Of a stretch of DNA of 25,673 bases, positions 8,941 to 25,673 are shown in pieces. The notes beneath the pieces are model-generated. The model did no database searches and was not told the DNA's origin. It worked only from the letters and a program-made list of their open reading frames with translations. This stretch comes from a virus: positions 1 through 25,673 of the IMG/VR virus record IMGVR_UViG_3300046011_005496, one strand, 5' to 3'. The translations under genes and the position numbers were made by a program. Positions within the stretch are counted from its first letter, which is position 1. Each line of letters opens with the position of its first letter.

Positions 8941-8961
8941 TACATCGTGCGTAGCAGGGAT

Positions 8962-9264: not shown

Positions 9265-9265
9265 T
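9236..9265 (+). promoter_or_regulatory. sigma70-type promoter for the gene at 9296
   Basis: TTGACG (9236-9241), an 18-bp spacer and TATGAT (9260-9265). The promoter is buried in the 3' end of the preceding gene. Its -10 element begins a 30-bp block that is repeated exactly at the next promoter. Confidence 0.65.
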
Positions 9266-9285
9266 TGAACCGTGGGGAAAGGAGA
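9256..9285 (+). repeat. 30-bp direct repeat, copy 1 (promoter -10 plus ribosome site)
   Basis: Identical to 9653-9682. It carries the TATGAT -10 element, the expected transcription start and the AAAGGAGA ribosome site, so it is a portable expression leader. The flanking sequence, including the coding sequence behind it, is not repeated. Confidence 0.9.
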
Positions 9286-9295
9286 CCATGTACCT

Positions 9296-9637: not shown

Positions 9638-9662
9638 CATCGGGGCAGAAACGGGGTATGAT
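9634..9662 (+). promoter_or_regulatory. strong sigma70-type promoter for the operon from 9687
   Basis: TTGACA (9634-9639) and TATGAT (9657-9662), 17-bp spacer. This is the best match to the bacterial consensus in the window. The -35 element overlaps the stop codon of the previous gene. Confidence 0.82.
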
Positions 9663-9682
9663 TGAACCGTGGGGAAAGGAGA
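9653..9682 (+). repeat. 30-bp direct repeat, copy 2 (promoter -10 plus ribosome site)
   Basis: Exact second copy of 9256-9285, 397 bp downstream. It ends in AAAGGAGA, which sets the ATG at 9687. See the copy at 9256 for its content. Confidence 0.9.
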
Positions 9683-9686
9683 GAAA

Positions 9687-9944
9687 ATGACCAAGGAAAA
9701 AGTGGTTCTAGTGGCTCTGGCGGCGGCTCTCGTTGTTGCCGTGCCAATCAAGTTCGGAACCAATACCAGAGGCAATGTTTTCAAGAAAGGCACCAAGGCT
9801 CCAGCCGCCACCGTGGTCGGTGTGTTGAACAAAGAAAAAACCACCGACAGACTCAAGAAACTTTTGGTGCCCATCGACTGGGCGAATCCGCTCGCCACTC
9901 AAGTCACCCATCCCAAGAAACCCAAAAAGGAGGAACAGAAATGA
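9687..9944 (+). CDS. small membrane-anchored or exported protein of unknown function
   Basis: An 85-residue protein that opens M-T-K-E-K and then V-V-L-V-A-L-A-A-A-L-V-V-A-V (residues 6-19), a hydrophobic helix after a short basic end, as in a signal anchor. The rest is basic and soluble, finishing K-K-P-K-K-E-E-Q-K. No signal-peptidase site or lipobox is obvious. The ATG at 9687 is placed by the AAAGGAGA site. It is first in an operon of overlapping genes (ATGA with the next). It could sit in the host inner membrane, for example for superinfection exclusion, but nothing in it proves that. Confidence 0.55.
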   Translation: MTKEKVVLVALAAALVVAVPIKFGTNTRGNVFKKGTKAPAATVVGVLNKEKTTDRLKKLLVPIDWANPLATQVTHPKKPKKEEQK

Positions 9945-10210
9945 CCACCCGCTACATCATCGTCAAGCAGGAACAGGACATGCAAGAAATGGGATGTCAG
10001 CACACGGCTTGTGATGTGTTCCACAAAAAATGGCGTGATTACTACGGTCACTGCACGAAGCCAATCAAGCCTCGCCCCGAGTGGGTCATCATTGACACGA
10101 CAACCAACGAGCGTCCCAACTACTACACCGACACTTTCTTGACGAAACAAGATGCCAAAACCGCTCTGACCCGACTTCTAAACATTCTCACGAAAGGAGA
10201 ACAGCAATGA
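9941..10210 (+). CDS. small protein of unknown function
   Basis: An 89-residue protein with a Cys/His-bearing middle (M-G-C-Q-H-T-A-C-D-V-F-H-K-K-W) that could bind a metal. It is followed by P-E-W-V-I-I-D-T-T-T-N and a C-terminal helix (D-A-K-T-A-L-T-R-L-L-N-I-L). The start ATG 9941 overlaps the previous stop (ATGA) and has AAGGAGG at 9927-9933. Its own stop overlaps the next start the same way. No family recognised. Confidence 0.62.
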   Translation: MTTRYIIVKQEQDMQEMGCQHTACDVFHKKWRDYYGHCTKPIKPRPEWVIIDTTTNERPNYYTDTFLTKQDAKTALTRLLNILTKGEQQ

Positions 10211-10689
10211 CCACGACCAGCCCGCTCTACGAAGCGACTCGCAATCTGCCGCTCAAGCAGATAGCGGCGCTCGTGCGAACCGAGGTTCGCAAGACTCTGA
10301 AAACTTGGAACTCGCAAAACGCAAGGGGGGCTGGCTTCCCGCCTGATAGGCGCTTGGACGAGATAGGGGTGTCGGTCAGGTTGGACGGCTACCGTTCAAT
10401 CAGCGTCGACTTGCAACTTTCGGACGCCTTATACGACAAGATGGGAGAGTTCGCCGAAGCGCTCTACATGGACCGTTTGACCGAAAGGCATGTCAGAGAT
10501 GACTATGACTTCATGCGAACCTACGACAACGGAAAGTACCTTGATTTGTTCAATGTCTACCAGTTGGAGAAAATCGTTGAAGAAATCCGTAACCAATACA
10601 ACTACAACAACTCCGACCTGATGATTGACTATTTTGATGTCCGCTACTACGGGACCACGAAGTTCACCAAGGGAAAGCGAGGCTGGTAG
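10207..10689 (+). CDS. unknown phage protein, N-terminus perhaps LPD29-like
   Basis: A 160-residue protein. Residues about 14-60 read L-P-L-K-Q-I-A-A-L-V-R-T-E-V-R-K-T-L, then G-V-S-V-R-L-D-G-Y-R-S-I-S-V-D. This helix-then-strand order resembles the LPD29 domain of phage polyvalent proteins as I recall it. The C-terminal half is rich in Y and D (Y-N-Y-N-N-S-D-L-M-I-D-Y-F-D-V-R-Y-Y-G). The AAAGGAGA site at 10194-10201 sets the ATG. Translational coupling to the genes on either side is likely. Function unknown. Confidence 0.6.
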   Translation: MTTTSPLYEATRNLPLKQIAALVRTEVRKTLKTWNSQNARGAGFPPDRRLDEIGVSVRLDGYRSISVDLQLSDALYDKMGEFAEALYMDRLTERHVRDDYDFMRTYDNGKYLDLFNVYQLEKIVEEIRNQYNYNNSDLMIDYFDVRYYGTTKFTKGKRGW

Positions 10690-12199: not shown

Positions 12200-13687
12200 A
12201 TGGCGAGCGCTGACGATTTTATTGAACTTGGCTCATCTGGTTTGCAACGGACCTCAGGGTTCGTTATCGACGAGTTCGTCTCAGACCTCAGAGGAATCAG
12301 GGGTGCCCGTGTCTACCGAGAAATGTCAGATAACGACCCAGTCATTGGGGCGATGCTTTATGCGATTGAAAAACTGATTCTCGCCATCAAGTGGGAAGTA
12401 GAACCTTGGCACGAAAAAGACAAAGAAGTCAAACGGAAAGATAAAGAAAACGCCATCTTCGTCGAGGAGTGCATGCACGACATGAGCGAATCATGGTCGG
12501 CGATGATTTCACAGATTCTTTCTTTCCTTCCTTACGGATATGCCTTTTGTGAACTTGTCTACAAGAAGCGTGTCTCGCCAGATGCCAAGAGCGGCATGAA
12601 ACGGTCTAAGTTCACTGATGGAAAAATCGGTTGGCGCAAGATTGCGCTCCGAGGACAAGAAACACTGTGGGACTGGGTGTTCGATGACAACGGCGGTGTG
12701 AGGGCTTTCCAACAGTCAGACCCGTCCGTGCCAAAAGGTTTGGTGACCATTCCCATCGAGAAGGGTCTCCTATTCCGCACTGCTAACCCTCGCAACAACC
12801 CTGAGGGCAGGTCGATTCTCCGCAACGCTTATCGACCGTGGAAGTTCAAGAAGACCATTGAGGAGATTGAGGCTGTAGGTATTGAGCGTGACTTGGCTGG
12901 TTTGCCTGTTGCCTATGTTCCACCGTCGATGCTTTCGTCCGCCGCTACCACAGCAGAAGTATCTGCCCGTAATGCGATGCAAGATTTGATTCGCCGCATC
13001 AAGCGAAACGAGAACGAAGGTGTCTTGTTCCCATTGGCTTACGATGAGCAGGGTCGTGAACTTTACAAACTGACGCTCCTCAACTCTGGTGGCACCCGCC
13101 AGTTCAATACGGATGCAGTGGTGACCCGCTATGACCAGCGAATCGCCATGACGGTCCTCGCAGATTTCATCCTTCTCGGGCACGACAAGGTCGGCTCGTT
13201 TGCTTTGGGTGCATCGAAGATTGACTTGTTCACTTCTGCCATCCAGCAGATTGCGGACACGATTGCCGATACTTTCAACGACCACGCCATTCCTCGCCTG
13301 TTTAGGTTGAACGGTATGAATACCTCAAGACTGCCGAAAATCAAGGCTGGCGAAATCACACATGTTGACTTGGGTGTCCTCGGAGACTTCGTCTCGAAGA
13401 TGACTTCGGCTGGTGCGATGCAACCAGACCTCGAGATGGACAACTATCTGAGGTCGCTCGCTAATCTTCCGCCTCGTTCGGAGCAGGAGGGCGGCATGAT
13501 GGCTCCGCAGGGCATGGACCCGTTGACTGGTCAACCAGTTCCGCCAACCCCGCCCGCAGGCGCCCCCGCAGGCGCACCCCCGCCCGCAGGCGCACCTACG
13601 GGCGCCCCCGCAGGCGAGGCTCCAGCACCAGAGCCGACCAACCTGTTCGAGATGGTGTCCCAGCAGGAACAGCAAAAAGGCGGCTGA
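12200..13687 (+). CDS. phage portal protein (DUF935/Mu gp29-like)
   Basis: A 495-residue portal, the dodecameric ring at the head vertex through which DNA enters and leaves. The N-terminal part has Y-R-E-M-S-D-N-D-P-V-I-G-A-M-L-Y-A-I-E-K-L-I, typical of this portal type. The middle has a stem-clip part with G-W-R-K-I-A-L-R-G-Q-E-T-L-W-D-W and R-T-A-N-P-R-N-N-P-E-G-R-S-I-L-R-N-A-Y-R, followed by the wing helix F-K-K-T-I-E-E-I-E-A-V-G-I-E-R. The last 70 residues include a low-complexity tail of P-A-G-A-P-type repeats (about residues 452-475). It is directly followed by the Mu F-like gene, as is usual. Confidence 0.88.
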   Translation: MASADDFIELGSSGLQRTSGFVIDEFVSDLRGIRGARVYREMSDNDPVIGAMLYAIEKLILAIKWEVEPWHEKDKEVKRKDKENAIFVEECMHDMSESWSAMISQILSFLPYGYAFCELVYKKRVSPDAKSGMKRSKFTDGKIGWRKIALRGQETLWDWVFDDNGGVRAFQQSDPSVPKGLVTIPIEKGLLFRTANPRNNPEGRSILRNAYRPWKFKKTIEEIEAVGIERDLAGLPVAYVPPSMLSSAATTAEVSARNAMQDLIRRIKRNENEGVLFPLAYDEQGRELYKLTLLNSGGTRQFNTDAVVTRYDQRIAMTVLADFILLGHDKVGSFALGASKIDLFTSAIQQIADTIADTFNDHAIPRLFRLNGMNTSRLPKIKAGEITHVDLGVLGDFVSKMTSAGAMQPDLEMDNYLRSLANLPPRSEQEGGMMAPQGMDPLTGQPVPPTPPAGAPAGAPPPAGAPTGAPAGEAPAPEPTNLFEMVSQQEQQKGG

Positions 13688-13688
13688 C

Positions 13689-14633
13689 ATGCCGCACGAC
13701 CACACGCTCGAGTCGGTCACTAAGGCTGAAATCCTTGACCCTGTTCTTCGTGAGGAGATAGCGGCACTCGCCAACCTGTACGACACTGCTTTCCGTGGTC
13801 TTGCCGCCGCCGCTGAGCGGGCGAGGAACGCCATGATTGCGGCAGGTCGCACAGGTACGGCTGACCTCCGCAGTTTTCAAGAGGTGTTTGCCGCTGAGGT
13901 GCAACGCTCTCTTGGTACTTCGCTTGTGGATGTTTCGGACGGTACCCGTGAACAGTTGTTGAGGGATGTCGAACGCTCCATTAGGGAACTGCCTGAAGGT
14001 ATTTCTGTTTCGATGCGATTCGACCGATTGGACCCTCGAGCCATTCAGTGGGCATCAACTCGGGCGGGGACACTGATTCAGCAGATTCAGACCGAAACTT
14101 TGACGGCTGTACGGCGCATCATTGCAGACGCTCTCGCAGGCGGTGGTGGGGTTATCGGCGCATCCAGTCAACTTGTGAGGGTTATCGGGCTACATGAACG
14201 CTGGCAGGCGGCGGTCGACAACTTCTACGAAAACCAAATCGAGGACCTGACCGAAATGTTCCCCGAGTTGGGGGCGGAAGAGATTGCCACTCGAGCGCAA
14301 GGCGCCGCCGAGGAGTATCGTGCTCGTCTTGTGCGAACCCGAGCGGACACGATTGCCCGCACAGAAATCATCGCCGCCCAGAACACAGGGCAGTTGGTGT
14401 CGTGGCTTCAAGCCGCCGACCAAGGTTTTTTGGACTTGAACAACGCCTACAAGGAGTGGGTGGTCGGTCCCGATGGGTGGGCTGGTATAGCGGTATGCGA
14501 AATCTGTTTGGAGTTGGGTGGCGAGACTGTGCCTGTGTTGGGGGTGTTCTCGAATGGTGAGGCGTATCCGCCAGCGCACCCAAACTGTCGATGCAACATG
14601 AATCTCATCGTCGATTTTGGTGAGGAGGAATAG
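13689..14633 (+). CDS. Mu F-like head morphogenesis protein (minor capsid)
   Basis: A 314-residue protein of the Mu gpF/SPP1 gp7 type, a minor head component that binds the portal and acts in head assembly and DNA ejection. The long helical N-terminus is followed by R-A-D-T-I-A-R-T-E-I-I-A-A-Q-N-T-G (about residues 218-234). The end has C-E-I-C-L-E-L-G-G and the hallmark P-P-A-H-P-N-C-R-C. In other phages the Mu F domain is sometimes fused to toxin domains. Here the domain ends normally, and the toxin-like domains follow in separate genes starting 2 bp further. It carries no copy of the repeated tag. Confidence 0.9.
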   Translation: MPHDHTLESVTKAEILDPVLREEIAALANLYDTAFRGLAAAAERARNAMIAAGRTGTADLRSFQEVFAAEVQRSLGTSLVDVSDGTREQLLRDVERSIRELPEGISVSMRFDRLDPRAIQWASTRAGTLIQQIQTETLTAVRRIIADALAGGGGVIGASSQLVRVIGLHERWQAAVDNFYENQIEDLTEMFPELGAEEIATRAQGAAEEYRARLVRTRADTIARTEIIAAQNTGQLVSWLQAADQGFLDLNNAYKEWVVGPDGWAGIAVCEICLELGGETVPVLGVFSNGEAYPPAHPNCRCNMNLIVDFGEEE

Positions 14634-14635
14634 TC

Positions 14636-17600
14636 GTGGCTGACATCAAAAACCTCGTCAGAGTTGATGCGATGGTTCGCCGTGCCTTACGCAAAGCCTC
14701 TTTTGGCGGGGACCGTAGTGCGGCTGGCAGGTATGCCGCCGAACAGAGATGGAAGAATCATCAGAAAAAAGAACAAGCAGGCGGCAATGTGACCACCCCG
14801 CCAATCACAACGCCCACTGTTCGCACCACTGAAGAGAAACTCGCCAACGGTCCACAGAACTTTATCTTTGGGCTTGACCAGTACGGCATGCCCAAGATGG
14901 GCACACTCGACGAGTTGAAAAAACGATATGGTCGTGGCGCCGCCGCCCGCTCCAGTTATTTTTTGGACAAATACGGGGTGAAGGTACGGATTGTTCCAGT
15001 GAAGGCTGGAAGCCTTGAAGAAGTAACGCAGTTGGGTGCGCTTCAAGCCATCGAAGAGGTGATGATGAACACCGAAAACGGGGCGACGCTGGTAAAAAAC
15101 ATTTCGTTGGGTGATGATGGTTCGTACACCTACAAAAACATGGACGCCAATGGCTACTACCAAAGCGGTTACATTACGCTGAAACAAGAGACGATTCAGG
15201 GGCGAATACTGAAACTGCTCCCTGCGCTCAGAGACGGCAAAGTGGATGTTGGGCAAAATCTGTCGTTCAGATTTACTCAAGAGGGTGTCACGATTCCAGT
15301 GGATGGTGGAACTGCTGTTGTTCGGACGATGTGCCAACGGGCGGGCTATGCGGTGATGGTTCACGAGTTCGGTCATGCGATTGACATGGCGGGCGGGGGT
15401 CGCAGAATGGACGCTTCATCGACGGTTCACTATGGGCGTGGAATCTTGGGGCTGGGGAAAATCCCTACATCTGTTTCCCGTTACGGTCAGGGCAATGAGT
15501 TTGAGTATGTGGCTGAGGCGTGGACGGCTTGGTTCCTGTTTGGTCAGACATCGGTAAAAACTGGTTTTTCTGCGGATTCTTATGGCGAGTTGGCGGCACC
15601 GATTCTTCGCCCGATTTTTGAGGATAGGAAAGATGTCGTCAAGATGTTGGAGCGGTCCATCGACATTGCCGATTTGCCACCAGAGCATCCAGTCATCATG
15701 TTTATTTTGGCGCCGTTTATTTCGAGCGCCGCCCTTATCAAAGCGTCGTTCGGTGGCGACCGCTCCGCCGCTGGTCGCTATGCCGCCGAGCAGAGATGGA
15801 AAGGGCATGTCAAGGGGGGCAAATCTGCATCGGTGGTTGTGAACGAGTCTCAGTTGTCGTGGCTGACAAAACCAACTGATACGAGTTCAGAAGACTTCAC
15901 CAAAAGGATTGTTGAGCGACTTGTCGAAAAGTTTAGTTTCTTTGAGTTGAGCGCCGCAGTGTTGGTGCAACTATCCATGTCTTATCCCAAGGAAGGGCAA
16001 CAGGCGTTGCGGTTGCTGAACGCCTATAAAGAAGAACTGAGTGGTGCCAAAAACTCAAAAGAAGTGGGCATTATTGTCAACGAAATAATCTCTAGACAGG
16101 GCGCTCAACCGAGGATGTATGACAGTTGGGAAACCGAAGAACTCGAGTTGATACGACTTTCTGGGTCAATAGGTGACATGGAATCCGACTCTTTGACGCA
16201 GGCGGACAGGTTGGTCCACACCTTGAAACAAGGGTGGACCGTTGGCAGTCAAAAAGGTAGGGCGCAAGTGGCGGCGTTGACTGGACAAAGCCTTGGTGCC
16301 TCATCAAATCGAAACGCCGAGCAGGACTACGAGAGAAAAGATGCCGACGAACTTACAAAGATAATGAATACAGATGAGGGGTATGCGGCGAAACAAGTTT
16401 TGACTGCTTTGGTGAAAGAAGTGTACGACGACACGCAACGGCTCATAAAAGAAAAACTGCCAGAAGGTACGACGCATGTAAGGCTGTTCAGGGGCACCGC
16501 TTTGACGGAAGAACAACTGAGGGATGCCAAGGACGGGCTTCTGGATGTGGCGGTCACGAGTAGTTGGACGAGTAGCCCGAAGATAGCGGGAGATTTTCGT
16601 GGGACTTACAAACCGCTTTGGGATGCGACGGGGGAGCGCAGAAAACTGGAAGAAGTGAAAATAACCGCCTTGGTTCCCGTAGGTTCGATTTTTGCTGTGG
16701 GTTTGCAGGGTTTTGGCGGAAAAGGGGAACGGGAGGTTTTGGTTCTTGGTCCATCGGTCGAAGTGCAGAGGGTTGTTCTGTCAACAGAGGCGGTCGGGAA
16801 GAACCTTGCCGCTCTCATCAAAGCCTCCTTCGGTGGTGACCGCTCAGCGGCAGGTCGTTATGCGGCTGAGCAAAGGTGGAAAGGGCATGTGAAAGACAAG
16901 CCTGCTGGCAGTCCGCCGTCTGGTGGGGCAGGGGACTTCATGCGTTTGATAAACGGCACACCGCAGACCTACACAGTCAAGGGCGTGATTCAGGTTCACG
17001 GGTTCGGCATAGATGGCGGCATAAGCCGTGGGCATTACGACGACTTGGTCAAAGCCGACCCAAATGAGGAGGGCAACTCGACTGGCGTGTGGCAGACCAC
17101 CGCTGGGGAGTTCCGCCGCATGGCTACCAGCGGTGAGTTGGACTTGTCACCGAAATGGGTAGACCATGTGGTTCGCAGTCTGCGGGAACACTCAGATGAC
17201 ACGAGGGTTGCAGTGGAACTGGGTGTGGACGCCATCATTGTGCGAAACCAGCCCATTGTTCCTATTCGTCCTGACCAGCCGCACACCGCCAAAGACATTG
17301 TCAGTATTGGGCAAGCCATCAACAGTAGCGCTCAAATAGACGAGGATTGGGGTCTCAATAACGACACCGATAAAAAGTTGACCGTCAACACGAGTCCACG
17401 CAATAAGGGACCAGTCAAGTCTGGAACACTTAGCCGCTGGGAGAAAGGGTGGGAAACGGACTACAACAACCTGCCTTACTGCAAGGAAATCGCAAGCCAC
17501 GCCGCCTATCTGATGGGACAAGTAGATGCTCCCGTCGAACGGTGGGGGCGGGACCGTGGTTCTCGTGCGCCATCAGAGGCGATGCTGGCGCAAGACGCCA

Positions 17601-18184
17601 AGGATTTGTTGGCGAGCATCCACCAAGGCGTTGAAGGTCAACCTGTTCTGTGGCGTGGCTTGGAGCCGTCTCGGTCGGCTACGAAAGGCTTGGTGGACAA
17701 GGCTCAGGTTGGCGATACGCTGACTCTCGGTTTGGCGTCGACCAGCAGGGACGCTATTGCGGCGGCGAAATACACGCAGGCTTACAGCGGTGAAAGCAAA
17801 CCAATCCTCATGCGAATCGAAGAAGGCTCAAAGGGTGTTTCCCTTGGCGACAGGGCGTTGTATCGGCACGACCAAGAAGTCATAACGAGCGGCAAGTTCG
17901 AGGTCGTCGGTGTCCAAACCGTGACTGTCCCACAGTGGCAGATGCCCTCGCTCGGAGTTGAGACGATTCAACCATCAGAAAGAATCGTCATCGCACGGGA
18001 AGCGTTGCCGAAGGTGAAGGCTTTGTTGCCCCCAGAACAGTATGCGGCTATTGAACGGTCCGTGGAGCGAGAGGCACGGAACAAGGTGGAGTTTGAGAAA
18101 AAAACCGTGACTGTGAAGATTGTGTCGGTTCGCCAAACGGAGACCTTCAACCCTGAGACTGAGGAGTTTGAGGCGAATGGCTGA
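14636..18184 (+). CDS. three-module cargo polyprotein: metallopeptidase, ADP-ribosyltransferase, ADP-ribosyltransferase
   Basis: An 1182-residue protein built of three units, each starting with the 23-residue tag (residues 20-42, 369-391, 729-751). Unit 1 holds H243-E-F-G-H247 and E294 in Y-V-A-E-A-W, the pattern of a zinc metallopeptidase. Unit 2 holds R619 in L-F-R-G-T, T-S-S-W-T-S-S (641-647) and E698-R-E700, the R-S-E set of ADP-ribosyltransferases. Unit 3 has a second such set: R1007 in L-W-R-G-L, S1035-T-S1037 and D1079-Q-E1081, where the first acid is D instead of E. Start is GTG 14636 after GAGGAGGAA. It follows the Mu F-like gene directly. I infer head-packaged effector cargo. Whether it is cut at the tags is unknown. 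Confidence 0.8.
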   Translation: MADIKNLVRVDAMVRRALRKASFGGDRSAAGRYAAEQRWKNHQKKEQAGGNVTTPPITTPTVRTTEEKLANGPQNFIFGLDQYGMPKMGTLDELKKRYGRGAAARSSYFLDKYGVKVRIVPVKAGSLEEVTQLGALQAIEEVMMNTENGATLVKNISLGDDGSYTYKNMDANGYYQSGYITLKQETIQGRILKLLPALRDGKVDVGQNLSFRFTQEGVTIPVDGGTAVVRTMCQRAGYAVMVHEFGHAIDMAGGGRRMDASSTVHYGRGILGLGKIPTSVSRYGQGNEFEYVAEAWTAWFLFGQTSVKTGFSADSYGELAAPILRPIFEDRKDVVKMLERSIDIADLPPEHPVIMFILAPFISSAALIKASFGGDRSAAGRYAAEQRWKGHVKGGKSASVVVNESQLSWLTKPTDTSSEDFTKRIVERLVEKFSFFELSAAVLVQLSMSYPKEGQQALRLLNAYKEELSGAKNSKEVGIIVNEIISRQGAQPRMYDSWETEELELIRLSGSIGDMESDSLTQADRLVHTLKQGWTVGSQKGRAQVAALTGQSLGASSNRNAEQDYERKDADELTKIMNTDEGYAAKQVLTALVKEVYDDTQRLIKEKLPEGTTHVRLFRGTALTEEQLRDAKDGLLDVAVTSSWTSSPKIAGDFRGTYKPLWDATGERRKLEEVKITALVPVGSIFAVGLQGFGGKGEREVLVLGPSVEVQRVVLSTEAVGKNLAALIKASFGGDRSAAGRYAAEQRWKGHVKDKPAGSPPSGGAGDFMRLINGTPQTYTVKGVIQVHGFGIDGGISRGHYDDLVKADPNEEGNSTGVWQTTAGEFRRMATSGELDLSPKWVDHVVRSLREHSDDTRVAVELGVDAIIVRNQPIVPIRPDQPHTAKDIVSIGQAINSSAQIDEDWGLNNDTDKKLTVNTSPRNKGPVKSGTLSRWEKGWETDYNNLPYCKEIASHAAYLMGQVDAPVERWGRDRGSRAPSEAMLAQDAKDLLASIHQGVEGQPVLWRGLEPSRSATKGLVDKAQVGDTLTLGLASTSRDAIAAAKYTQAYSGESKPILMRIEEGSKGVSLGDRALYRHDQEVITSGKFEVVGVQTVTVPQWQMPSLGVETIQPSERIVIAREALPKVKALLPPEQYAAIERSVEREARNKVEFEKKTVTVKIVSVRQTETFNPETEEFEANG
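14693..14761 (+). repeat. tag copy 1
   Basis: Encodes residues 20-42 of the 14636 protein, before the metallopeptidase unit. Core FGGDRSAAGRYAAEQRW followed by K-N-H. Ser of D-R-S uses AGT, and Arg of G-R-Y uses AGG. Confidence 0.95.
15740..15808 (+). repeat. tag copy 2
   Basis: Encodes residues 369-391 of the 14636 protein, before the first ADP-ribosyltransferase unit, preceded by A-A-L-I. Core unchanged, followed by K-G-H-V-K. Ser of D-R-S uses TCC, and Arg of G-R-Y uses CGC. Confidence 0.95.
16820..16888 (+). repeat. tag copy 3
   Basis: Encodes residues 729-751 of the 14636 protein, before the second ADP-ribosyltransferase unit, preceded by A-A-L-I. Core unchanged. Ser of D-R-S uses TCA, and Arg of G-R-Y uses CGT. 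Confidence 0.95.
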
Positions 18185-19088
18185 CTTGGGTTTCATCGAC
18201 GACCTCTGGTTCGACAGGCTTGGGGAACTTGATGAGGAGATGCGATTGGCTGACCTCATCAAAGCCTCTTTTGGCGGGGACCGTAGTGCCGCAGGCAGGT
18301 ATGCGGCTGAACAGCGATGGAAGGGTCATGTCAAGAAACAGCCAGTCGCCCCGTCCAATCCCTACAACCTTCAGGTCTCGGAGAATCTTGGCGCCCAGTT
18401 GTCTCTCATAGGGGCGGCGATGCGAACGGTCGAGGACGCTGGTGTGGAGACGAAGGCGTATGGTCGCTCTGATTTGACTCCTGACGACATAGACAAGTTG
18501 GACGATGAGATTCATGCGATGAGGAAAAGAATCGACGGGGCAGACAAGTTGAACGATTTTCGATTGAGCAAGGGGAAGATTTCGGAGGAGGAGTATCTTC
18601 GTATGAATGAAGTGTTGAGAAGAGCGCACGAGGCAAGAAGATTGGGGAGAATGGCGTTGACGAAAATGCTTCGTGACCCTTCCGATGAGGATTTTGAGGA
18701 TGAGTTGTTGGTGAGCCGTGACGCAGATGGCAAACTTGCTGGGCTAACGATGATTTCAACACTCAAAAAAGATGTCGATTTGAGGATGCTCTACCACAAC
18801 GGTCCGCCAGTTGTTCTGAATGTCAAGGGCAGGTCCGTCTATGTGGAGTTTTTAGTGAGTTTTCAATCGGTTCCCCAAATGGGCAAGGCATTGTTTGGGG
18901 AGTTGCTGAAACATTCCGCTGGTAAGGGTGTTCAGAGCATCATGCTGGAAACCACGGATGAGAGCAGGGACTATTGGCAGAGAATCGGTTTCAAGCCGAT
19001 GCAGTCATACGGTGTGGTTAGCGTGGACCGTCACTCAATCGAGTTTCCTGTTGATTTGATGGTCAATAAAATGGAAGAGGGCAACTGA
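18177..19088 (+). CDS. tagged cargo protein with a GNAT acetyltransferase domain
   Basis: A 303-residue protein. The short acidic leader (residues 1-28, ending L-A-D-L-I) is followed by the tag at 29-51, a helical linker, and a GNAT-like domain from about 185. The domain shows V-S-R-D-A-D-G-K-L-A-G-L-T, then V-Y-V-E-F-L-V-S-F-Q-S-V-P-Q-M-G-K-A-L-F-G-E-L-L, then the late GNAT motif D-Y-W-Q-R-I-G-F-K-P-M. The A-box here is Q-M-G-K-A-L rather than the usual R-x-x-G-x-G, so acyl-CoA binding should be checked. The ATG at 18177 overlaps the previous stop. Start at 18120 in another annotation would be inside the previous gene. Likely cargo like its neighbours. Confidence 0.72.
   Translation: MADLGFIDDLWFDRLGELDEEMRLADLIKASFGGDRSAAGRYAAEQRWKGHVKKQPVAPSNPYNLQVSENLGAQLSLIGAAMRTVEDAGVETKAYGRSDLTPDDIDKLDDEIHAMRKRIDGADKLNDFRLSKGKISEEEYLRMNEVLRRAHEARRLGRMALTKMLRDPSDEDFEDELLVSRDADGKLAGLTMISTLKKDVDLRMLYHNGPPVVLNVKGRSVYVEFLVSFQSVPQMGKALFGELLKHSAGKGVQSIMLETTDESRDYWQRIGFKPMQSYGVVSVDRHSIEFPVDLMVNKMEEGN
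18261..18329 (+). repeat. tag copy 4
   Basis: Encodes residues 29-51 of the 18177 protein. Core unchanged, followed by K-G-H-V-K-K. Closest in codon use to copy 1 (shared AGT and AGG), yet it still differs from it at several synonymous sites. Confidence 0.95.
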
Positions 19089-19089
19089 C

Positions 19090-20697
19090 ATGGCTGGCAT
19101 CCAAGACCTTGATTACTATGACGATGACGACCTTATCGAACTGTTGCGGCAGGTTGACCTCGAGGAGATACTAAAAGCGTCTTTCGGTGGCGACAGGTCT
19201 GCCGCTGGTCGCTATGCCGCTGAGCAACGCTGGAAGGGTCATGTGAAACGGGAGGACAAGGGCAAGGAGGGTAAGACCTTGCGGGATGCTACGGCTGAGG
19301 TGTCGGCGCTTTTGAGGCGGATAAACGGCATGCTGGAGTATCCGATAAGTGATAAAGGTTCGGCGGGAAACCCGATGACTCCAGAGGAATACGAGTCTTC
19401 GTCAGCCACCAGTTTTCGGTTCGTTTATGTAAAGACTGGGAAGAACGGAAAGGTCATGCTTGTTCCGTCGAAGCAGTCAATGGAGGCGGAAAGACGAGTC
19501 AACGAGTTGGGGCAACAGGCGTTCAAGGAAATCGGCGCAAGGCTGGTAGCAAACGGGACGGTAACTCAGAAGGAACTCGACGATGCGATTTCCTTTCAGC
19601 GGGCGCCAGAGGATGCTGATGAGTCGCCTGACGCCGACCTGTATCGGCGGGCGATGGCTGGCGACAAGTCACTTGGCAATGAGGTTGCCGAGAAGGGGCG
19701 GAGGGTTGCGGAGGCTAAGGAGGCGGCGGCAAAGGCGAAGGGGGCGTTGATGAAGGCGACCCGTGAATACAACAAGTACCTAGAAACCGAAGGCGGTCGT
19801 TCGTATGACGAGACCGCTCGACGCCTATGGGAAGCAAGAAAACAGGCGAGGGCGGCGAACATTGACGCAAGGCTCGAGTTGGCTACCGCCGACGAAGTCC
19901 TGATGGAAGCAATCAGGGAGATTCGACCAGTTGACTACAAGGCGCTGGACGACGCTCGGAAGGCTGGGAAGGAAAACAGTTTGAGGGTGCAAGGGCTTAT
20001 TGGCGCCGAAGTAAAACGGGTGTTGGCTGGGGATAATGCGATGAGCGACAACCACCCCGCCAACAAAGTTGATGTTCCAACAACAACCTTACTCAGAATC
20101 GCAGATGACAAACCTCAATCCAAAACTGGAAACCAAGTGGTCGCAGAGATTATGGGGGAGGTGTCACGAAGGTTCCCGAAGAAGTTGCTCGACTTGGTCG
20201 CTGGGGTGAGGCACAAGTTCACCTCTCGGGGCGGTGGATACTACAACGATGGAATGAACTTGATTCAATCCGACATGGACGACGCCGACACTTTGACCCA
20301 TGAGACTGTTCACGCCATCTCGTACAGGGACAGTGCTACGAGGGTATTGGAGCAGGCGGCACTCAGTCGCCGAGTATTTGGTAAGCCAGACCAGCCAGAT
20401 GATTCTTTCGCAAAGAAACTAGAAAAAGGTTTGCAGAGAGTCGTTGGGGGCACGAAGGCTGTGGGATGGAGATTGGGCGGTAAATACATTGAGGACAAGT
20501 TTGTTGCTGGGTATCAGGGACGGATGTACGGTCTGGAGCGAAGCAACTATCAGTCGCAACCAACAGAGATTTTGACGATTGCAACCGAGAATGTGTTTGG
20601 CGGTGCAAGTTATTTCAGGTCCACTGGAAGATTGGACCAAGATTTGATGATGACGGCGTTGGGCTGGCTATTGGTCGGTGGGTCGAACCGTGATTGA
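19090..20697 (+). CDS. tagged cargo protein with a second HExxH metallopeptidase domain
   Basis: A 535-residue protein. An acidic leader (Y-D-D-D-D-L-I-E-L-L, residues 10-19) precedes the tag at 29-51. A long helical middle (residues about 180-290, rich in A, K, E, R) follows. The C-terminal part carries H404-E-T-V-H408 in T-L-T-H-E-T-V-H-A-I-S and later E493 in Q-P-T-E-I-L-T-I-A-T-E, a plausible third zinc ligand. It differs from the metallopeptidase of the 14636 protein apart from the zinc motif. ATG 19090 lies one base after the previous stop. It could cut host proteins after injection or head proteins during maturation. The first is favoured by the tag context. Confidence 0.72.
   Translation: MAGIQDLDYYDDDDLIELLRQVDLEEILKASFGGDRSAAGRYAAEQRWKGHVKREDKGKEGKTLRDATAEVSALLRRINGMLEYPISDKGSAGNPMTPEEYESSSATSFRFVYVKTGKNGKVMLVPSKQSMEAERRVNELGQQAFKEIGARLVANGTVTQKELDDAISFQRAPEDADESPDADLYRRAMAGDKSLGNEVAEKGRRVAEAKEAAAKAKGALMKATREYNKYLETEGGRSYDETARRLWEARKQARAANIDARLELATADEVLMEAIREIRPVDYKALDDARKAGKENSLRVQGLIGAEVKRVLAGDNAMSDNHPANKVDVPTTTLLRIADDKPQSKTGNQVVAEIMGEVSRRFPKKLLDLVAGVRHKFTSRGGGYYNDGMNLIQSDMDDADTLTHETVHAISYRDSATRVLEQAALSRRVFGKPDQPDDSFAKKLEKGLQRVVGGTKAVGWRLGGKYIEDKFVAGYQGRMYGLERSNYQSQPTEILTIATENVFGGASYFRSTGRLDQDLMMTALGWLLVGGSNRD
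19174..19242 (+). repeat. tag copy 5
   Basis: Encodes residues 29-51 of the 19090 protein, preceded by L-E-E-I-L. Core unchanged. Arg of D-R-S uses AGG, Ser uses TCT, and Arg of Q-R-W uses CGC. Confidence 0.95.
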
Positions 20698-20995
20698 ACA
20701 CACTTGGGTTGTCGAACATGAGGGGCAGGATAGTGAGGTCGTCTGGGATGATGTTTCCTTGACGCTTTTCGGTCCTGCGCCGATTACGGTGCGAGCGCAC
20801 GAGTTGGTCAAGGCTCGGCAGGTCGTGTATGTGACGCCTGTTGGTCCAAGGATGGTTGCTTCGCTGGATGAGCAGTTAGCGGCGTGGGCGACGATTTCGC
20901 AAGCCATCGAAGACTCTGGCTATGAACTGGTGGGCGGCAGTAAGGCGCCGATGGAACCAGAGATGGAGTTAGAAGATAACCCCTCTAGCGAGTGA
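20690..20995 (+). CDS. small acidic protein between cargo genes, unknown
   Basis: A 101-residue acidic protein (M-I-E-H-T-W-V-V-E-H-E-G-Q-D-S-E-V-V-W-D-D-V) with mostly beta strands and an acidic disordered tail (M-E-P-E-M-E-L-E-D-N-P-S-S-E). GTG 20690 overlaps the previous stop. GTG 20678 is also in frame. Its stop overlaps the start of the protease-cargo gene (GTGA). It lacks the tag. Being coupled to the prohead protease gene it could be a chaperone or inhibitor of it, but this is only position. No family recognised. Confidence 0.55.
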   Translation: MIEHTWVVEHEGQDSEVVWDDVSLTLFGPAPITVRAHELVKARQVVYVTPVGPRMVASLDEQLAAWATISQAIEDSGYELVGGSKAPMEPEMELEDNPSSE

Positions 20996-23900
20996 CGCAA
21001 GGCTGGTCAACTACTACTGTCGATGCGATGGCTGAGACCAGCATGCAAAAAGATGTCGAGTTGGCTCAAGCATGGGCTAAGGGCGAGGTGGCGTGGGAAG
21101 ACCTGCCGCCGCATGTTCAAGACGCCATTGACGAGGTCATGGCAGACGAGTTACCAGATGAGGCTTCTGTCAGTGATGCCATGACTAAAAGCGAAGAGGC
21201 GTTGACGCTTCTTCATAAGTCTGATGGTGAGCATCGTTTCACGCTTGGTCCTTGGTACATCCCAAACAGATATGACGCTCATGGGGAGTGGACTGATGCG
21301 GACGAGTTGCAGAAGGCGCTTTGGGAGTATGTGCGAACTGGTGACCGTGGTATCAGGTTGCAACATGACAAGGACATCGTTGCTGGAGAGTGGCTGGAGG
21401 CGATGTCGTTCCCTGTTCCTGTGACCATTGGGATGAACAAAGCGGAGGGGAGCCAGCAGGTTACCTATCCGTCTGGGACCGTGTTCCTCGGTGTGCAGTG
21501 GAAGCCGTGGGCGTGGGAGTTGGTCAAGGAAGGCAAGATTCGAGGGTTTTCGATTGGTGGTGCGGCGGCTCGTATCGAGATGATGATGCCCGACGATGCG
21601 ATTGCCAAAGCATCGTTCGGCGGTGACAGGTCAGCGGCAGGGCGTTATGCCGCAGAGCAGAGATGGAAAGGACACGCCAAGGGCGGCAAGCCGACAGGCG
21701 GCGAAGCATCCCAAAGGGTGACCGACATGCGGCAACGAAGCCAGCCGCTTATGAACATGATTGAAAGGTTCTCCGACAAAAAACTTCTCGATAGCGCCGT
21801 GGAATCACTGAAGAAACGGGGCATCGCCAACCCCACTCTTCCTGATGACGATGAAGTGAACAAGAAACTTGCTGATGGTCTGAAAAAGAACTTTGCATCG
21901 TTGATGAAGCAAGCCGAGGATGCTATTGCCGCATCGGAAAAGGCGATGAAGAACGGCGATACGGCAACCCTAGACGAGCAAAACAATGCACTGCAAAAAA
22001 TCAAGAACAAGTTTGGGGCATTGAACCGAGCGACCCTCAAGGAGGAAGAGGCGAAGGTGGGGATTCCCAAGAACATCTCCGAGAACAATCTTCAGACGAT
22101 GATGTACGCCAGCGTCGCCCTCATTTACGACAACGCCAAAAAGTTCATCGACCAAGAAATCAAACGGAATAAGGGGATACCGATTTGGAAGGCGTCTTTC
22201 GGTGGCGACAGGTCCGAGGCTGGGCGGTATGCCGCCAATCAACGCTGGCAGGGTCAGGGTTTGCGTGGCGTCGAAACCAGCGGGCAGAAGACGACTGCGG
22301 TTATGCACGATGTTGTGACCCGTGTGCTTGGGCGTGTTGCTCAGGCTCGGGCAAGAAAAGAAATGAGGCAAGAAGAGGGCAGGTCTTCGTTGCTGTCCCG
22401 CATCAAGTATGTGTTCTCAAATGATTACACCAATCCTGAGCCTTTGGCGAGGAAGTGGGTGAAGGATGCGGCTCGTTTGGCGATGCGGGACAAAGAACGG
22501 GCAACCGATATGCAGGTTTCTTCCGTAGTCGCTTTGCCTGAAGGCAAGCAGGTGATTTTGGACCGAGGGAAGTTGACGACTGTTGGTAAGCAACAGCCAA
22601 CCTCATCTCAGGTGCATGTCGATACCATCATGGGCGGCAAGAAACGCAAACGAAATAAACGCAAGCCAATCATGGTCGATAAAGCGAAGAGTCCAGCATG
22701 GCAACGAGAAGAAGGAAAAAACCCCAAGGGCGGATTGAACGCTAAGGGTCGTGCTTCGGCAAAGGCACAGGGCATGAATCTGAAACCGCCAGTCAAGAGC
22801 GGCGACAATCCTCGCCGTGCCTCATTCCTTGCTCGTATGGGTAATGCGAATGGTCCAGAGTATGACGAAAAAGGTAAGCCGACACGGTTGCTTCTTAGTT
22901 TGAGGGCGTGGGGCGCTTCATCGAAAGCAGATGCCCGCAAGAAGGCGGCGGCTATCTCTGCTCGCAATAAGGCGAAAGAGACGAAGAAAGCCAAGGGCGG
23001 TCTGTCGGAGTGGTTTGACGAGAAGTGGGTTGATTTGTCAAGACCGAAAGAGGGCGGCGGTTTCGAGGAATGTGGGCGTCCTGATGCTTCGGAGGGCAAG
23101 TATCCAAAATGCGTTCCTGCTTCTGTTGCGGCGAAGATGTCGGAGAATGAGCGCAGGTCTGCTATTCGCCGCAAGCGTCAAGCAGAGGCTAAGGGGCGTC
23201 GTGAAAACGGCAAACCGATAAATGTGCCGACCTTCAAGTCGAAGAATGTGCCGACTGACCCCAAGTTGTATGCACGGGTAAAATCTGAGGCAAAAAAGAA
23301 GTTCGATGTGTACCCATCTGCCTATGCCAATGCTTGGCTTGTGCAGGAATATAAGAGGAGAGGTGGTGGATACAAGGTACAAAAATCTTTTGATGCGATT
23401 ATAGATAACCGTTTGGCAACAGCAAGAATCAAAAAACAAATGTTTGAAAAAGCGGTTTCATTTGGGGGTGACCGTTCCGAAGCAGGCAGATATGCCGCCA
23501 ATCAACGATGGAAAGGCAGAGGGCATGTTGCTCAAAAGCACATTCGTAGTTGGCATAAACAGTTTGGGCGTGGAAAGATGCAATACCCCAAAACACCTGA
23601 AGGTAAAGCACTTGCTCAAACAATGCCAAGTTTGAACACTCATTGTGATTTTGATAGTTTGGCGAAAGAGTTACAACGAACAGGGATGACATCAAATAGC
23701 CCTGACTATGCGATGGTGGTCTACGGGTTTTTGACGGATGAGCGTCGTGCTACTTGGGACAAGTTGATTGGTGACGCCGTGAGCGGTGTACCGCAAGGAA
23801 CGAACCCTGAGGGTTCTAGGGTGTTTGTGAAGGCTGGTGGAGGAGGTTCAGGTAAATCATCTACTCCAGCGATGGAGGGTGTGAACATTCCGACTGCTGG

Positions 23901-24609
23901 TGAGAAGATTGACGGCAAGGCAACTCCTCGTAATGCTGTCATATCTAACGCTGATGATGTAAAAGAACTGTTACCCGAATGGAGTCAGTCCGAAAAGTCA
24001 TCAGATAACAAGATGACGATAACCCCGAAAGGTAAGCAACTTCCTGACGGTCCTTTGATGCAAAGACGGGCTTCGCTCGTGCATGAAGAGTCTTCACTTA
24101 TCGGGAACTTGATTGTTACCGCCGCAATAGAAACGAAGAAAGATTTGATTGTTGACGGGACTTTGGATAACGGTGTCGAAAAGTCTTTGGCTAAGTTGCA
24201 GTCGTATCGTGACGGTGGTGCGGCGGAGGTTCATTTGATTACTTATTCGTGTGATACCGATGAGGCGGAGGCTCGGGCTTATGTTCGTTCCAAGGAAACT
24301 GGTAGGTCGGTACCTGTTGAAAGTTTGAGAAACGCTCACATCAAGGTGTCGTCTAACTTCCCTCAATACCTTGAGAAAGGCAACCTTGATTCGGTGACGG
24401 TGGTTGACACGAACTTGAACGATGACGGTTCCAAGCGTCCTGCTACAAAGATTTTTGAGTATAAGCCTTCAGGTGGGATAAAGATTTTGAATCAAGTGTT
24501 GTATCAGCGTTTCTTGGACAAGCGAAACGACTCAATGAAATCTGGTATCAACCCGTTCGAGTTGGATGAAGAAGTAAATCAGCAGATAGTGAACTCACAG
24601 AAGGGATGA
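20992..24609 (+). CDS. XkdF-like prohead protease fused to tagged cargo, ending in a zeta-toxin-like kinase
   Basis: A 1205-residue protein. Residues about 82-200 match the XkdF-like (S78-type) prohead protease: L-G-P-W-Y-I-P-N-R-Y-D-A-H-G-E, then L-Q-H-D-K-D (H125), then G-K-I-R-G-F-S-I-G-G (S187), the probable nucleophile. Tag 6 (206-228) leads a helical segment. Tag 7 (400-422) leads a very basic region with S-P-A-W-Q-R-E-E-G-K-N-P-K-G-G-L-N-A-K-G-R and W-V-D-L-S-R-P-K, resembling domains I recall as DUF6321 and DUF5872. Tag 8 (820-843) leads a zeta-toxin-like kinase: Walker A G-G-G-G-S-G-K-S-S (K955), H1031-E-E-S-S and V-D-G-T (D1055), T-G-R-S-V-P. Start GTG 20992 overlaps the previous stop. 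A protease joined to its likely cargo suggests self-cleavage. Confidence 0.8.
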   Translation: MTQGWSTTTVDAMAETSMQKDVELAQAWAKGEVAWEDLPPHVQDAIDEVMADELPDEASVSDAMTKSEEALTLLHKSDGEHRFTLGPWYIPNRYDAHGEWTDADELQKALWEYVRTGDRGIRLQHDKDIVAGEWLEAMSFPVPVTIGMNKAEGSQQVTYPSGTVFLGVQWKPWAWELVKEGKIRGFSIGGAAARIEMMMPDDAIAKASFGGDRSAAGRYAAEQRWKGHAKGGKPTGGEASQRVTDMRQRSQPLMNMIERFSDKKLLDSAVESLKKRGIANPTLPDDDEVNKKLADGLKKNFASLMKQAEDAIAASEKAMKNGDTATLDEQNNALQKIKNKFGALNRATLKEEEAKVGIPKNISENNLQTMMYASVALIYDNAKKFIDQEIKRNKGIPIWKASFGGDRSEAGRYAANQRWQGQGLRGVETSGQKTTAVMHDVVTRVLGRVAQARARKEMRQEEGRSSLLSRIKYVFSNDYTNPEPLARKWVKDAARLAMRDKERATDMQVSSVVALPEGKQVILDRGKLTTVGKQQPTSSQVHVDTIMGGKKRKRNKRKPIMVDKAKSPAWQREEGKNPKGGLNAKGRASAKAQGMNLKPPVKSGDNPRRASFLARMGNANGPEYDEKGKPTRLLLSLRAWGASSKADARKKAAAISARNKAKETKKAKGGLSEWFDEKWVDLSRPKEGGGFEECGRPDASEGKYPKCVPASVAAKMSENERRSAIRRKRQAEAKGRRENGKPINVPTFKSKNVPTDPKLYARVKSEAKKKFDVYPSAYANAWLVQEYKRRGGGYKVQKSFDAIIDNRLATARIKKQMFEKAVSFGGDRSEAGRYAANQRWKGRGHVAQKHIRSWHKQFGRGKMQYPKTPEGKALAQTMPSLNTHCDFDSLAKELQRTGMTSNSPDYAMVVYGFLTDERRATWDKLIGDAVSGVPQGTNPEGSRVFVKAGGGGSGKSSTPAMEGVNIPTAGEKIDGKATPRNAVISNADDVKELLPEWSQSEKSSDNKMTITPKGKQLPDGPLMQRRASLVHEESSLIGNLIVTAAIETKKDLIVDGTLDNGVEKSLAKLQSYRDGGAAEVHLITYSCDTDEAEARAYVRSKETGRSVPVESLRNAHIKVSSNFPQYLEKGNLDSVTVVDTNLNDDGSKRPATKIFEYKPSGGIKILNQVLYQRFLDKRNDSMKSGINPFELDEEVNQQIVNSQKG
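21607..21675 (+). repeat. tag copy 6
   Basis: Encodes residues 206-228 of the 20992 protein, at once after the prohead protease domain. Core unchanged, followed by K-G-H-A-K-G-G. Arg of D-R-S uses AGG, and Ser uses TCA. Confidence 0.95.
22189..22257 (+). repeat. tag copy 7 (variant type)
   Basis: Encodes residues 400-422 of the 20992 protein. The variant core is FGGDRSEAGRYAANQRW followed by Q-G-Q: Ala becomes Glu after D-R-S, and Glu becomes Asn before Q-R-W. Confidence 0.93.
23449..23520 (+). repeat. tag copy 8 (variant type)
   Basis: Encodes residues 820-843 of the 20992 protein, before the zeta-toxin-like kinase. It has the same E/N variant core as copy 7, and an inserted Val gives K-A-V-S-F-G-G. 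Confidence 0.93.
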
Positions 24610-24613
24610 TGCG

Positions 24614-24850
24614 ATGAGAGAACCGAATGATTATGAACTGTGTAAAACGATTGCTTGCATGATTGTGGAAGGTTTATCTGAGCATGACATCTCGAAGTTT
24701 GGGGTGTTGAACACAGATGAGGGTCGTCTGTGTTATGCGGCGGCGTTGGAAAATCCGAAGTATTGGTCACAAATCGGTTTGGAAGTTGAGGCAGGTTGGT
24801 GTTGTTCTGGTCTTCCGCAAGGGCTTCGTGAGTATTTGGGGTTGACATGA
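24614..24850 (+). CDS. small protein of unknown function
   Basis: A 78-residue protein, M-R-E-P-N-D-Y-E-L-C-K-T-I-A-C-M-I-V-E-G-L, mostly helical with several cysteines (C-K, A-C, L-C-Y, W-C-C). It lacks the tag. It begins 4 bp after the previous stop and its stop overlaps the next cargo gene (ATGA). The coupling suggests it acts with its neighbour. No family recognised. Confidence 0.58.
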   Translation: MREPNDYELCKTIACMIVEGLSEHDISKFGVLNTDEGRLCYAAALENPKYWSQIGLEVEAGWCCSGLPQGLREYLGLT

Positions 24851-25673
24851 CATGCGATTGTGGTTGCGGTAAATCGCCGTTGTCCAAGGGGGAGCAGACA
24901 GTTTTGAAGCACCTTAGAGATGGGGTGTTGTGGGATTTGCCTGACGCTTTGTGGGCACAGGTTGTGTCAGAGGTGGAGAAGGCTGGTTCTATTACGAAAG
25001 TTCAGGGTTCAGCGCAAGTCATTTTGTACGATGCGATTACCAAGCAGGCTGGAGGGTTTGGTGGGGACCGTTCGGCGGCTGGTCGCTATGCCGCCGAGCA
25101 GAGATGGAAAGGTCATGTCAAGGCGGTACCGCAAGCAGGTGAAGCAAGAAGAGCAAAGGAAATGCCATTGCCACAGGGCGAAAGCGAAAAGTTGGGTACG
25201 CCTGTCCGCTGGGACCCTAAATCACGAAGGCAAATCGTAAAGGTGTCAACGGTGGAAGAAGCGTATGAAGAGATTGCCAAAGGAAATATCGTCGAGATGG
25301 CAACCGCTCAAGAAGCCGTCACCATTGTCGAGAAGATGGCGGATTACCTAAAAGAGGTTGAGGAGAAGACTGGGGAAAAGCCGAAGAATCTGAACTTTTG
25401 TCAAATCTCGGTTCCTGGGACGAACTTGTTTTGTGGTTCGTCGGTGGCGACGGACAAGTATCCAGATGGTGTACCTCGTGTCGAGATGCCTCAGTTGTCT
25501 GGTATCCCTAAGGAAGGTAGCAAGGCAGACAAGTTGGCTCGCATCGACGATGAAGGAAATGTTGATGTCGGTAAGGCGTTCGTCGACAAGTTAGCGAAAG
25601 AGGGAGTCGAGACCAAGGAGGCTGAGGTTCCTGCCAGTTGGTTGAAGGCGTCGCAGAGCGAGTTGAAAGGCTC
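24847..25673 (+). CDS. tagged cargo protein, incomplete at the window end, ParB-like end
   Basis: The open frame runs from ATG 24847 to the last base (275 codons, no stop). The N-terminus has C-D-C-G-C-G-K, a possible metal site, then a helical leader. The tag is at residues 71-90, ahead of a K-G-H-V-K. After it come two helical stretches and then S-V-P-G-T-N-L-F-C-G-S. The last visible part, V-P-A-S-W-L-K-A-S-Q-S-E-L-K-G-S, resembles the L-K-A-T-Q-x-E-L region of ParB-like nuclease domains in phage polyvalent proteins as I recall it. The rest lies outside the window, so the effector type is not settled. Confidence 0.7.
   Translation, partial: MTCDCGCGKSPLSKGEQTVLKHLRDGVLWDLPDALWAQVVSEVEKAGSITKVQGSAQVILYDAITKQAGGFGGDRSAAGRYAAEQRWKGHVKAVPQAGEARRAKEMPLPQGESEKLGTPVRWDPKSRRQIVKVSTVEEAYEEIAKGNIVEMATAQEAVTIVEKMADYLKEVEEKTGEKPKNLNFCQISVPGTNLFCGSSVATDKYPDGVPRVEMPQLSGIPKEGSKADKLARIDDEGNVDVGKAFVDKLAKEGVETKEAEVPASWLKASQSELKG
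25057..25116 (+). repeat. tag copy 9
   Basis: Encodes residues 71-90 of the 24847 protein. The core FGGDRSAAGRYAAEQRW and K-G-H are intact, but the usual K-A-S before it is replaced by K-Q-A-G-G. Ser of D-R-S uses TCG. Confidence 0.93.

Follow-up and report, generated by a model that had tools for sequence, protein, structure and literature searches.

Effectors that are packaged in the phage head, cut by the prohead protease and injected are already known. In T4, the internal proteins and the host-bound ADP-ribosyltransferase (ART) Alt carry a short N-terminal propeptide and a protease motif that ends in a charged residue, and gp21 and its relatives cut after the Glu that follows a short motif (PMC9026906; PMC7411985). 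Polyvalent proteins are large and multidomain, are linked to late genes and combine effectors such as zincin peptidases and ARTs (PMC5512222), MuF polymorphic toxins place MuF N-terminal to a toxin domain in one protein (PMC5576092), and HK97 gp5 is cleaved at K103/S104 (PMC10275583). Here we describe a repeated peptide, tag A, in the viral record IMGVR_UViG_3300046011_005496, a linear sequence of 25,673 bases that was analysed whole and is called the window below. Nine copies of this 20-residue peptide stand in five predicted proteins, every copy is preceded by a triplet of the form hydrophobic-x-Lys (9/9, read from the sequence), and most introduce a separate cargo domain. On the sequence pattern, we consider it fairly probable, though far from secure, that the XkdF-like prohead protease encoded among these genes cuts after hydrophobic-x-Lys, splitting cargos and removing propeptides, and that the tagged effectors ride in the head and are injected.

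Several differences set this arrangement apart from the described systems. Compared with the T4 proteins, the residue at the putative cut is Lys in place of Glu, the signal is repeated inside multidomain proteins, and behind the site comes a long, conserved tag (PMC7411985; PMC9026906). The window shares its kinds of effector with the polyvalent proteins, but its domains are spread over several genes, each with its own tag, and no such tag appears in the available part of PMC5512222. Two of its proteins (14636-18184 and 20992-24609) do show the polyvalent trait of several effector domains in one polypeptide beside portal and MuF; Pfam listed none of the named polyvalent-associated domains for the ten window proteins scanned. 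As in the MuF polymorphic toxins, MuF adjoins the portal and effector domains are linked to MuF in some relatives (PMC5576092); the window's MuF, however, stands alone as a gene, no effector domain being recognised in it, and MuF precedes a toxin domain within one protein only in the relative G032. HK97 is similar in its cut after Lys, at F-N-K/S (PMC10275583; the fetched capsid protein record reads TFNK/SLGS), but what is cut there is the scaffolding domain of the capsid protein itself and no effector. The triplet is read as a prohead-protease site because HK97 gp5 is cut after the similar F-N-K and because the scheme is otherwise T4-type, with Lys. The Glu-ending T4-type motif itself, presumably L/I-x-E in its exact form, was not found at the propeptide ends, where hydrophobic-x-Lys stands instead. 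In the literature, neither the tag strings A to D nor the tag-cargo arrangement was found, most subscription papers lying outside the search; what is new is the repeated, clade-specific tag code.

The first-pass annotation, made from the letters of this DNA, had counted nine copies in five proteins behind the head genes, and both the open reading frames (ORFs) and a pattern search bear this out. A 45-base degenerate pattern matched nine times (at 14702, 15749, 16829, 18270, 19183, 21616, 22198, 23461 and 25057), against 0.00 matches expected from 100 dinucleotide shuffles; the copies are distributed 3+1+1+3+1 over five ORFs downstream of portal and MuF, in a stretch from 14702 to 25107. The annotation gave one core for all nine, and seven match it exactly; the copies at 22198 and 23461 read FGGDRSEAGRYAANQRW, with E/N substitutions. 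Between copies, 73% of synonymous sites differ while the peptide is kept (proportions of differing synonymous and nonsynonymous sites, pS 0.73 and pN 0.084), and the 60-base flanks on either side share at most 50% ungapped identity. Given the high pS, the low pN and the dissimilar flanks, the peptide is under selection and the copies are old. No known domain covers the tag: Pfam searches with three tag peptides gave only SPOR (E 0.079), and matches in the PDB were E 0.84 and worse. Chance and repeat DNA were considered as origins and ruled out by the shuffles, by pS/pN and by a control with reversed proteins.

That control belongs to a wider survey of IMG/VR, which was scanned with a corrected degenerate pattern (57 stretches) and a broader one (97); the survey set for tag A comprises 76 contigs including the window. 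At a threshold of at least 14 bits, a profile found 309 copies in 235 proteins on 71 contigs, the five contigs without such a tag being dropped, and the best score in reversed proteins was 7.0 bits. Nineteen of the 76 contigs overlap longer ones; the non-redundant set holds 57 contigs, 54 of them tagged, with 246 tags in 187 proteins. Among copies with the strict core and a complete 3' side, at least 116 residues follow the tag in 275/275 cases (215/215 non-redundant) and none of the 275 is C-terminal, 14 tags lacking the strict core having been kept out of this count and of the logo. If tags were placed at random, fewer than 116 residues would be expected behind about 100 of 286. The first tag of a protein lies 15 to 592 residues from the N-terminus, with a median of 60. 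Separately, a sub-threshold tag-like stretch, e.g., RSQAGRLAAQQR, was seen about 65 residues from the N-terminus in four relatives, scoring 2.4 to 10.7 bits in three (G009 9356-10450, G012 19577-20695 and G018 8660-9760) and 9.2 bits in the fourth (G010 288-1565).

Tag A is phage-only in the data searched and its placed copies lie mostly in the head block, as the first-pass proposal of a head-associated phage signal had anticipated. Genomes from 84,980 species of bacteria and archaea gave 44 single matches to the tag pattern, which are chance-like: no stretch carries a second match, and among the 25 that were translated by protein pattern, none has the K-A-F context. A host or plasmid origin was rejected on these matches and on the plasmids, where tag A found none. 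Among phage isolates, tblastn with tag A gave only matches of E 6 and worse, and tags B, C and D (described below; E was not searched) gave none, all of these being short and insensitive queries. In 394 genomes belonging to the same class as a Cellulomonas genome, neither B nor D, the only tags searched there, was present. The host is probably an actinobacterium, because the nearest isolated portals come from Arthrobacter phages (51-53% identity) and the relative G014 encodes WhiB. The Arthrobacter phages Laroye, Kovu and Ottawa have portal, MuF, XkdF, scaffold-like, DUF2190-like and capsid genes in the same order as the relatives of the window; their XkdF, in contrast, is C-terminal to a 2H/LigT domain (Pfam, Kovu), and no A tag was found in their translated head-region proteins or by tblastn. 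Some Arthrobacter phage genes whose annotation is RNA ligase or aldolase hold an XkdF domain (L183:14023-15156, L184:14381-15502), the Kovu copy being this 2H/LigT fusion.

The earlier annotation took the tag to be a targeting or processing signal, a reading that is supported in part. The tag is not the whole signal: other XkdF phages use other tags, yet nearly all tags follow a hydrophobic-x-Lys. Of 366 XkdF loci in IMG/VR, the best 80 were taken, and those among them without tag A mostly hold other repeated peptides at the same place, namely B (KHLxGQHDQSTHGSWA), C (KGDVxGHxFHGNQYT), D (K[AFY]NPxxDxxGRFxTGG) and E (KGGPGSGRHPEGG). The commonest tag per locus was A in 30, C in 16, B in 15, D in 4 and E in 3, with none in 12; four loci are mixed, and D tags also occur on three A-type contigs, two of them overlapping. 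Where Lys was required, position -3 is hydrophobic in 187/188 A (KA tags), 28/28 B, 25/25 C, 14/14 D and 16/16 E cases, against a background of 36%; where it was not, Lys stands directly before the tag in 29/34 B, 23/23 C, 14/14 D and 16/16 E. For tag A, hydrophobic-x-Lys lies within 13 residues before 231/237 unique copies, versus 61/223, 60/203 and 35/174 in intervals further upstream. Further scans for B, C and D (at least 120 stretches each; 356 read, some from contigs already counted) used patterns that demanded Lys and not the hydrophobic residue, so that only position -3 is a free test; it is hydrophobic in 302/324 B, 232/237 C and 107/120 D tags preceded by Lys. A single tag type was present in 288 of the 310 stretches with a recognised tag.

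Tag type also tracks the protease. On a tree of 54 XkdF rows, which replaced a 30-row tree that had missed the C clade, tag type changes 10 times, compared with a mean of 30.0 after shuffling, and 0/200 shuffles gave so low a number. Because different tags nearly all follow hydrophobic-x-Lys, this triplet looks like the shared, protease-site-like element and the tag like the clade-specific part. Cargo families are common to different tags, as twelve profiles of A cargos have matches among the segments that other tags precede. As a broader and more tentative proposal, which we hold plausible but somewhat short of probable, one loading code may be used across many uncultured tailed phages: hydrophobic-x-Lys plus one of at least five interchangeable tags, with the domain behind the code packaged, trimmed and injected, and effectors thereby swapped like cartridges. 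If true, this would supply a sequence rule predicting head-carried proteins, cut sites and effector starts in uncultured phages, make dozens of uncharacterised enzyme families testable as injected effectors, provide candidate cargo-loading peptides for phage biology, and bring the XkdF/HK97-type and T4 gp21 specificities under one scheme, a hydrophobic-x-charged residue.

The genomic setting links the tags to head assembly. The longest record of the first set, G009, runs from the terminase through a tagged gene, portal and MuF to further tagged genes, the XkdF gene, more tagged genes, the scaffold-like and DUF2190-like genes and the major capsid gene, and most other contigs fit parts of this order. 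Contigs that show a MuF or capsid gene carry 259/309 tags, 27 before MuF and three beyond the capsid gene; 50/309 could not be placed, and the terminase has four tags upstream of it. A search of 37 records, of which none is known to be complete, found XkdF in 23; of the contigs reaching from portal/MuF as far as the capsid gene, 10/10 have it (8 non-redundant). In the window, a tag directly follows the XkdF-like domain (40.7 bits against a cut-off of 24), about 8 residues behind it. Across the set, a tag stands 7-8 residues after XkdF in 12/26 XkdF proteins (10/20 non-redundant) and further on in nine. The His and Ser columns that are the presumed catalytic residues of XkdF are invariant in 15/15 aligned rows. 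The head-block genes of the window lie on one strand, most nearly touching, and are for these reasons likely to be expressed late together with the head proteins.

Fusions of MuF tie cargo to a head protein. In G032, a protein of 2275 residues combines MuF, metallopeptidase matches and a sub-cut-off ART match (Pfam ART-PolyVal, 31.0 bits, just under the cut-off of 31.2) with tags between them, and in cyanophage PSS2 MuF is fused directly to a zeta-toxin kinase (L218:4627-9126) homologous to the tagged kinase of the window. Since only gene position and such head-protein fusions point to the virion, the effectors might instead stay unpackaged and act in the same cell late in infection, the tag localising them or being cut there. 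Against this possibility, which we regard as rather improbable, stand the fusion of MuF to the same kinds of effector, the neighbouring prohead protease and the fact that most placed tags lie in the head block.

In the favoured mechanism, every cargo domain would be preceded by a two-part signal, the cleavage triplet hydrophobic-x-Lys and then the clade-specific tag. Tagged proteins would enter the prohead, where XkdF, cutting after the triplet, would remove N-terminal propeptides, free itself from its own polyprotein and separate the cargos. The tag would thus become the N-terminus of each mature cargo. Cargo units would stay in the head, the tag holding them on the DNA or on a head protein, until the effectors were injected with the DNA and the enzymes acted on the host. 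We infer cutting, packaging and injection alike from the pattern of sequences.

A number of observations weigh against this mechanism. A protease site alone fails to account for the conserved tag, and a structure model of XkdF with the tag was too poor to judge (predicted local distance difference test, pLDDT, 51.5). In the contig set, the tag is absent from the scaffold-like and major capsid proteins, the usual protease substrates; the terminase, portal and DUF2190-like proteins also lack it, and MuF is tagged in one relative only. Five of the 26 XkdF proteins have no later above-threshold tag, although one of these is truncated where its contig stops, and the 12 tagless loci among the best 80 hold none of the five tags. 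Where Lys is missing, position -3 is hydrophobic in only 4/10 B and 0/11 C contexts, and XkdF occurs on only 17/120 C, 36/120 B and 8/116 D stretches, mostly contig pieces or fragments. Finally, B and D tags adjoin closely related XkdF domains of one clade, which means that the tag is not determined by the protease by itself.

One alternative makes the tag a capsid-targeting or docking signal only, which sorts proteins into the prohead and at which no cutting takes place. Its length, its strong conservation and its restriction to cargo and protease proteins, bar the one MuF fusion, would fit such a role, as would the single-domain proteins that also carry a tag close to their N-terminus. Sorting, however, does not need one tag per domain in multidomain proteins, and the near-universal hydrophobic-x-Lys before five unlike tags would be left unexplained; docking alone is thus unlikely, although it deserves attention. 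Another candidate for the cutting is the cargo itself: for polyvalent proteins, processing by their own metallopeptidase domains has been put forward (PMC5512222), and at least one cargo with HExxH occurs in 10/10 contigs from portal/MuF to capsid (8 non-redundant). That such cargos and not XkdF process the tagged proteins is nevertheless very unlikely, as hydrophobic-x-Lys agrees with the HK97 prohead protease site and an HExxH cargo is present in only 32/71 tagged contigs, most of them fragments.

The cargos themselves are diverse. Behind A tags, 305 segments fall into 51 clusters from related contigs, four of the 309 segments having been left out at fewer than 60 residues each. Named families include zeta kinases, ARTs, zincin metallopeptidases, GNATs and DUF3626, and many clusters are nameless. 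For the window, the earlier domain calls are upheld for the zeta kinase (CL3, by a direct Pfam match) and both metallopeptidases and supported for the two ART-like domains; the GNAT call has indirect support, and the ParB-like call none. HExxH is invariant in 11/11 aligned CL5 sequences, which match a PDB profile of the zincin metallopeptidase fold (E 1.2e-6), and in 21/21 of CL1. The first ART-like cargo, CL2, has the R, S-x-S, ExE catalytic signature of ARTs, with R226-G227, E305 and E307 invariant in 17/17 sequences and an SSW block in the majority. Its AlphaFold2 model (mean pLDDT 74.8) has ARTs as top PDB matches, modest at Z 6.3 at most, with a weak best E of 0.32 against the PDB in Foldseek, and its best viral structure match is a protein with a head-morphogenesis domain. 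The second, CL14, aligns in HHalign (probability 93) with CL7, a cluster with a Pfam ART match. The GNAT-like CL11 has no direct Pfam GNAT match; it aligns at 96.7% in HHalign with CL10, a cluster in which the single member scanned has weak, below-cut-off matches to GNAT models. In one metallopeptidase cargo segment of another contig (L073:2061-3434), an apparent HNH-type zinc motif was noticed by eye near the end, before the next tag.

Cargos also exchange positions. Of the clusters with at least three members, 18/25 (17/24 non-redundant) occupy leading as well as internal positions in their proteins, and in five cases an identical run of 16 residues precedes different cargos. Six comparisons, picked for identical upstream residues and different cargo, show upstream DNA homology stopping -16 to +3 bases from the tag end. 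Swapping at the tag is what neutral linkers, or shared DNA that aids recombination between cargo genes, would produce. Yet the peptide is kept despite the synonymous divergence between copies, and tags lie near N-termini and not at C-termini. In the swaps, moreover, the similarity of the tag DNA is 0.71-0.78, against 0.82-1.00 in the roughly 240 bases upstream. This lower similarity of the tag DNA suggests that the tag travels with its cargo, and neutral repeats are an extremely unlikely explanation.

Table 1. Features of the window around the tagged genes, in base positions
Feature	Position	Strand	Basis
Mu-type portal protein	12200..13687	+	Pfam PF06074, E 1.5e-31
MuF head morphogenesis protein, separate gene	13689..14633	+	Pfam PF04233, E 1.9e-8
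Tagged protein 1, three tag-cargo units	14636..18184	+	ORF and tags
L-R-K site and tag copy 1	14687..14752	+	Pattern; triplet read from sequence
Zincin metallopeptidase cargo (cluster CL5)	14771..15736	+	HExxH; PDB profile match
L-I-K site and tag copy 2	15734..15799	+	ORF list, pattern
ART-like cargo (CL2)	15815..16816	+	Conserved columns, AlphaFold2 model, structure matches
L-I-K site and tag copy 3	16814..16879	+	ORF list, pattern
Second ART-like cargo (CL14)	16898..18181	+	HHalign to CL7
Tagged protein 2 (probable start ATG 18177, not TTG 18120); GNAT-like cargo (CL11) from 18339	18177..19088	+	HHalign to CL10
L-I-K site and tag copy 4	18255..18320	+	ORF list, pattern
Tagged protein 3; second metallopeptidase cargo (CL1) from 19252	19090..20697	+	HExxH
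I-L-K site and tag copy 5	19168..19233	+	ORF list, pattern
Small untagged gene, 105 residues	20678..20995	+	No Pfam or PHROG match
Tagged protein 4: XkdF protease, then three tag-cargo units	20992..24609	+	ORF, Pfam
XkdF-like prohead protease domain (Peptidase_S78_2), residues 73-196	21208..21579	+	Pfam, E 2.7e-10
I-A-K site and tag copy 6, directly after XkdF	21601..21666	+	ORF list, pattern
Segment CL15 after sixth tag	21682..22185	+	No Pfam match; weak PHROG of unknown function
I-W-K site and tag copy 7 (E/N variant)	22183..22248	+	Pattern
QPTSSQVHVD peptide, then Lys/Arg-rich tract	22594..22623	+	Identical to N-terminus of relatives' major capsid protein
DUF6321 (residues 575-640), DUF5872 further on	22714..22911	+	Pfam, E 4.4e-19 and 2.3e-11
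F-E-K site and tag copy 8 (E/N variant)	23443..23511	+	Pattern
Zeta-toxin-like kinase cargo (CL3)	23524..24606	+	Pfam PF06414, E 5.5e-15; PHROG minor head protein
Tagged protein 5, runs off window; cargo CL0	24847..25671	+	ORF
I-T-K site and tag copy 9	25036..25107	+	ORF list, pattern

Besides the tag, a second peptide recurs in this set. The capsid N-terminal peptide QPTSSQVHVD is found again in the XkdF polyprotein and, in altered form, in other proteins (G001, G002, G005, G007, G018, G039, L020, L103 and L123), several of them small and encoded between terminase and portal, with Lys/Arg-rich tracts following. When all 8-mers of 26 capsid proteins were compared with the set's other proteins, only those of the QPTSSQVHVD region recurred, and in G007 the capsid protein and another protein share the same variant. 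These copies may be mimics of the capsid N-arm or a shared protease site. The neighbouring DUF6321 and DUF5872, which in the window both sit between tags, co-occur in a T4-like cyanophage gene adjoining the terminase small subunit (L221:1186-2199), and some small proteins from phages of Pelagibacter and Methylophilales have DUF6321 without DUF5872. Upstream of the head genes, two further genes of the window (989-1708 and 2164-3054) encode a P-loop NTPase, which has a weak match of nSTAND-like type, and a protein of the GP88 family.

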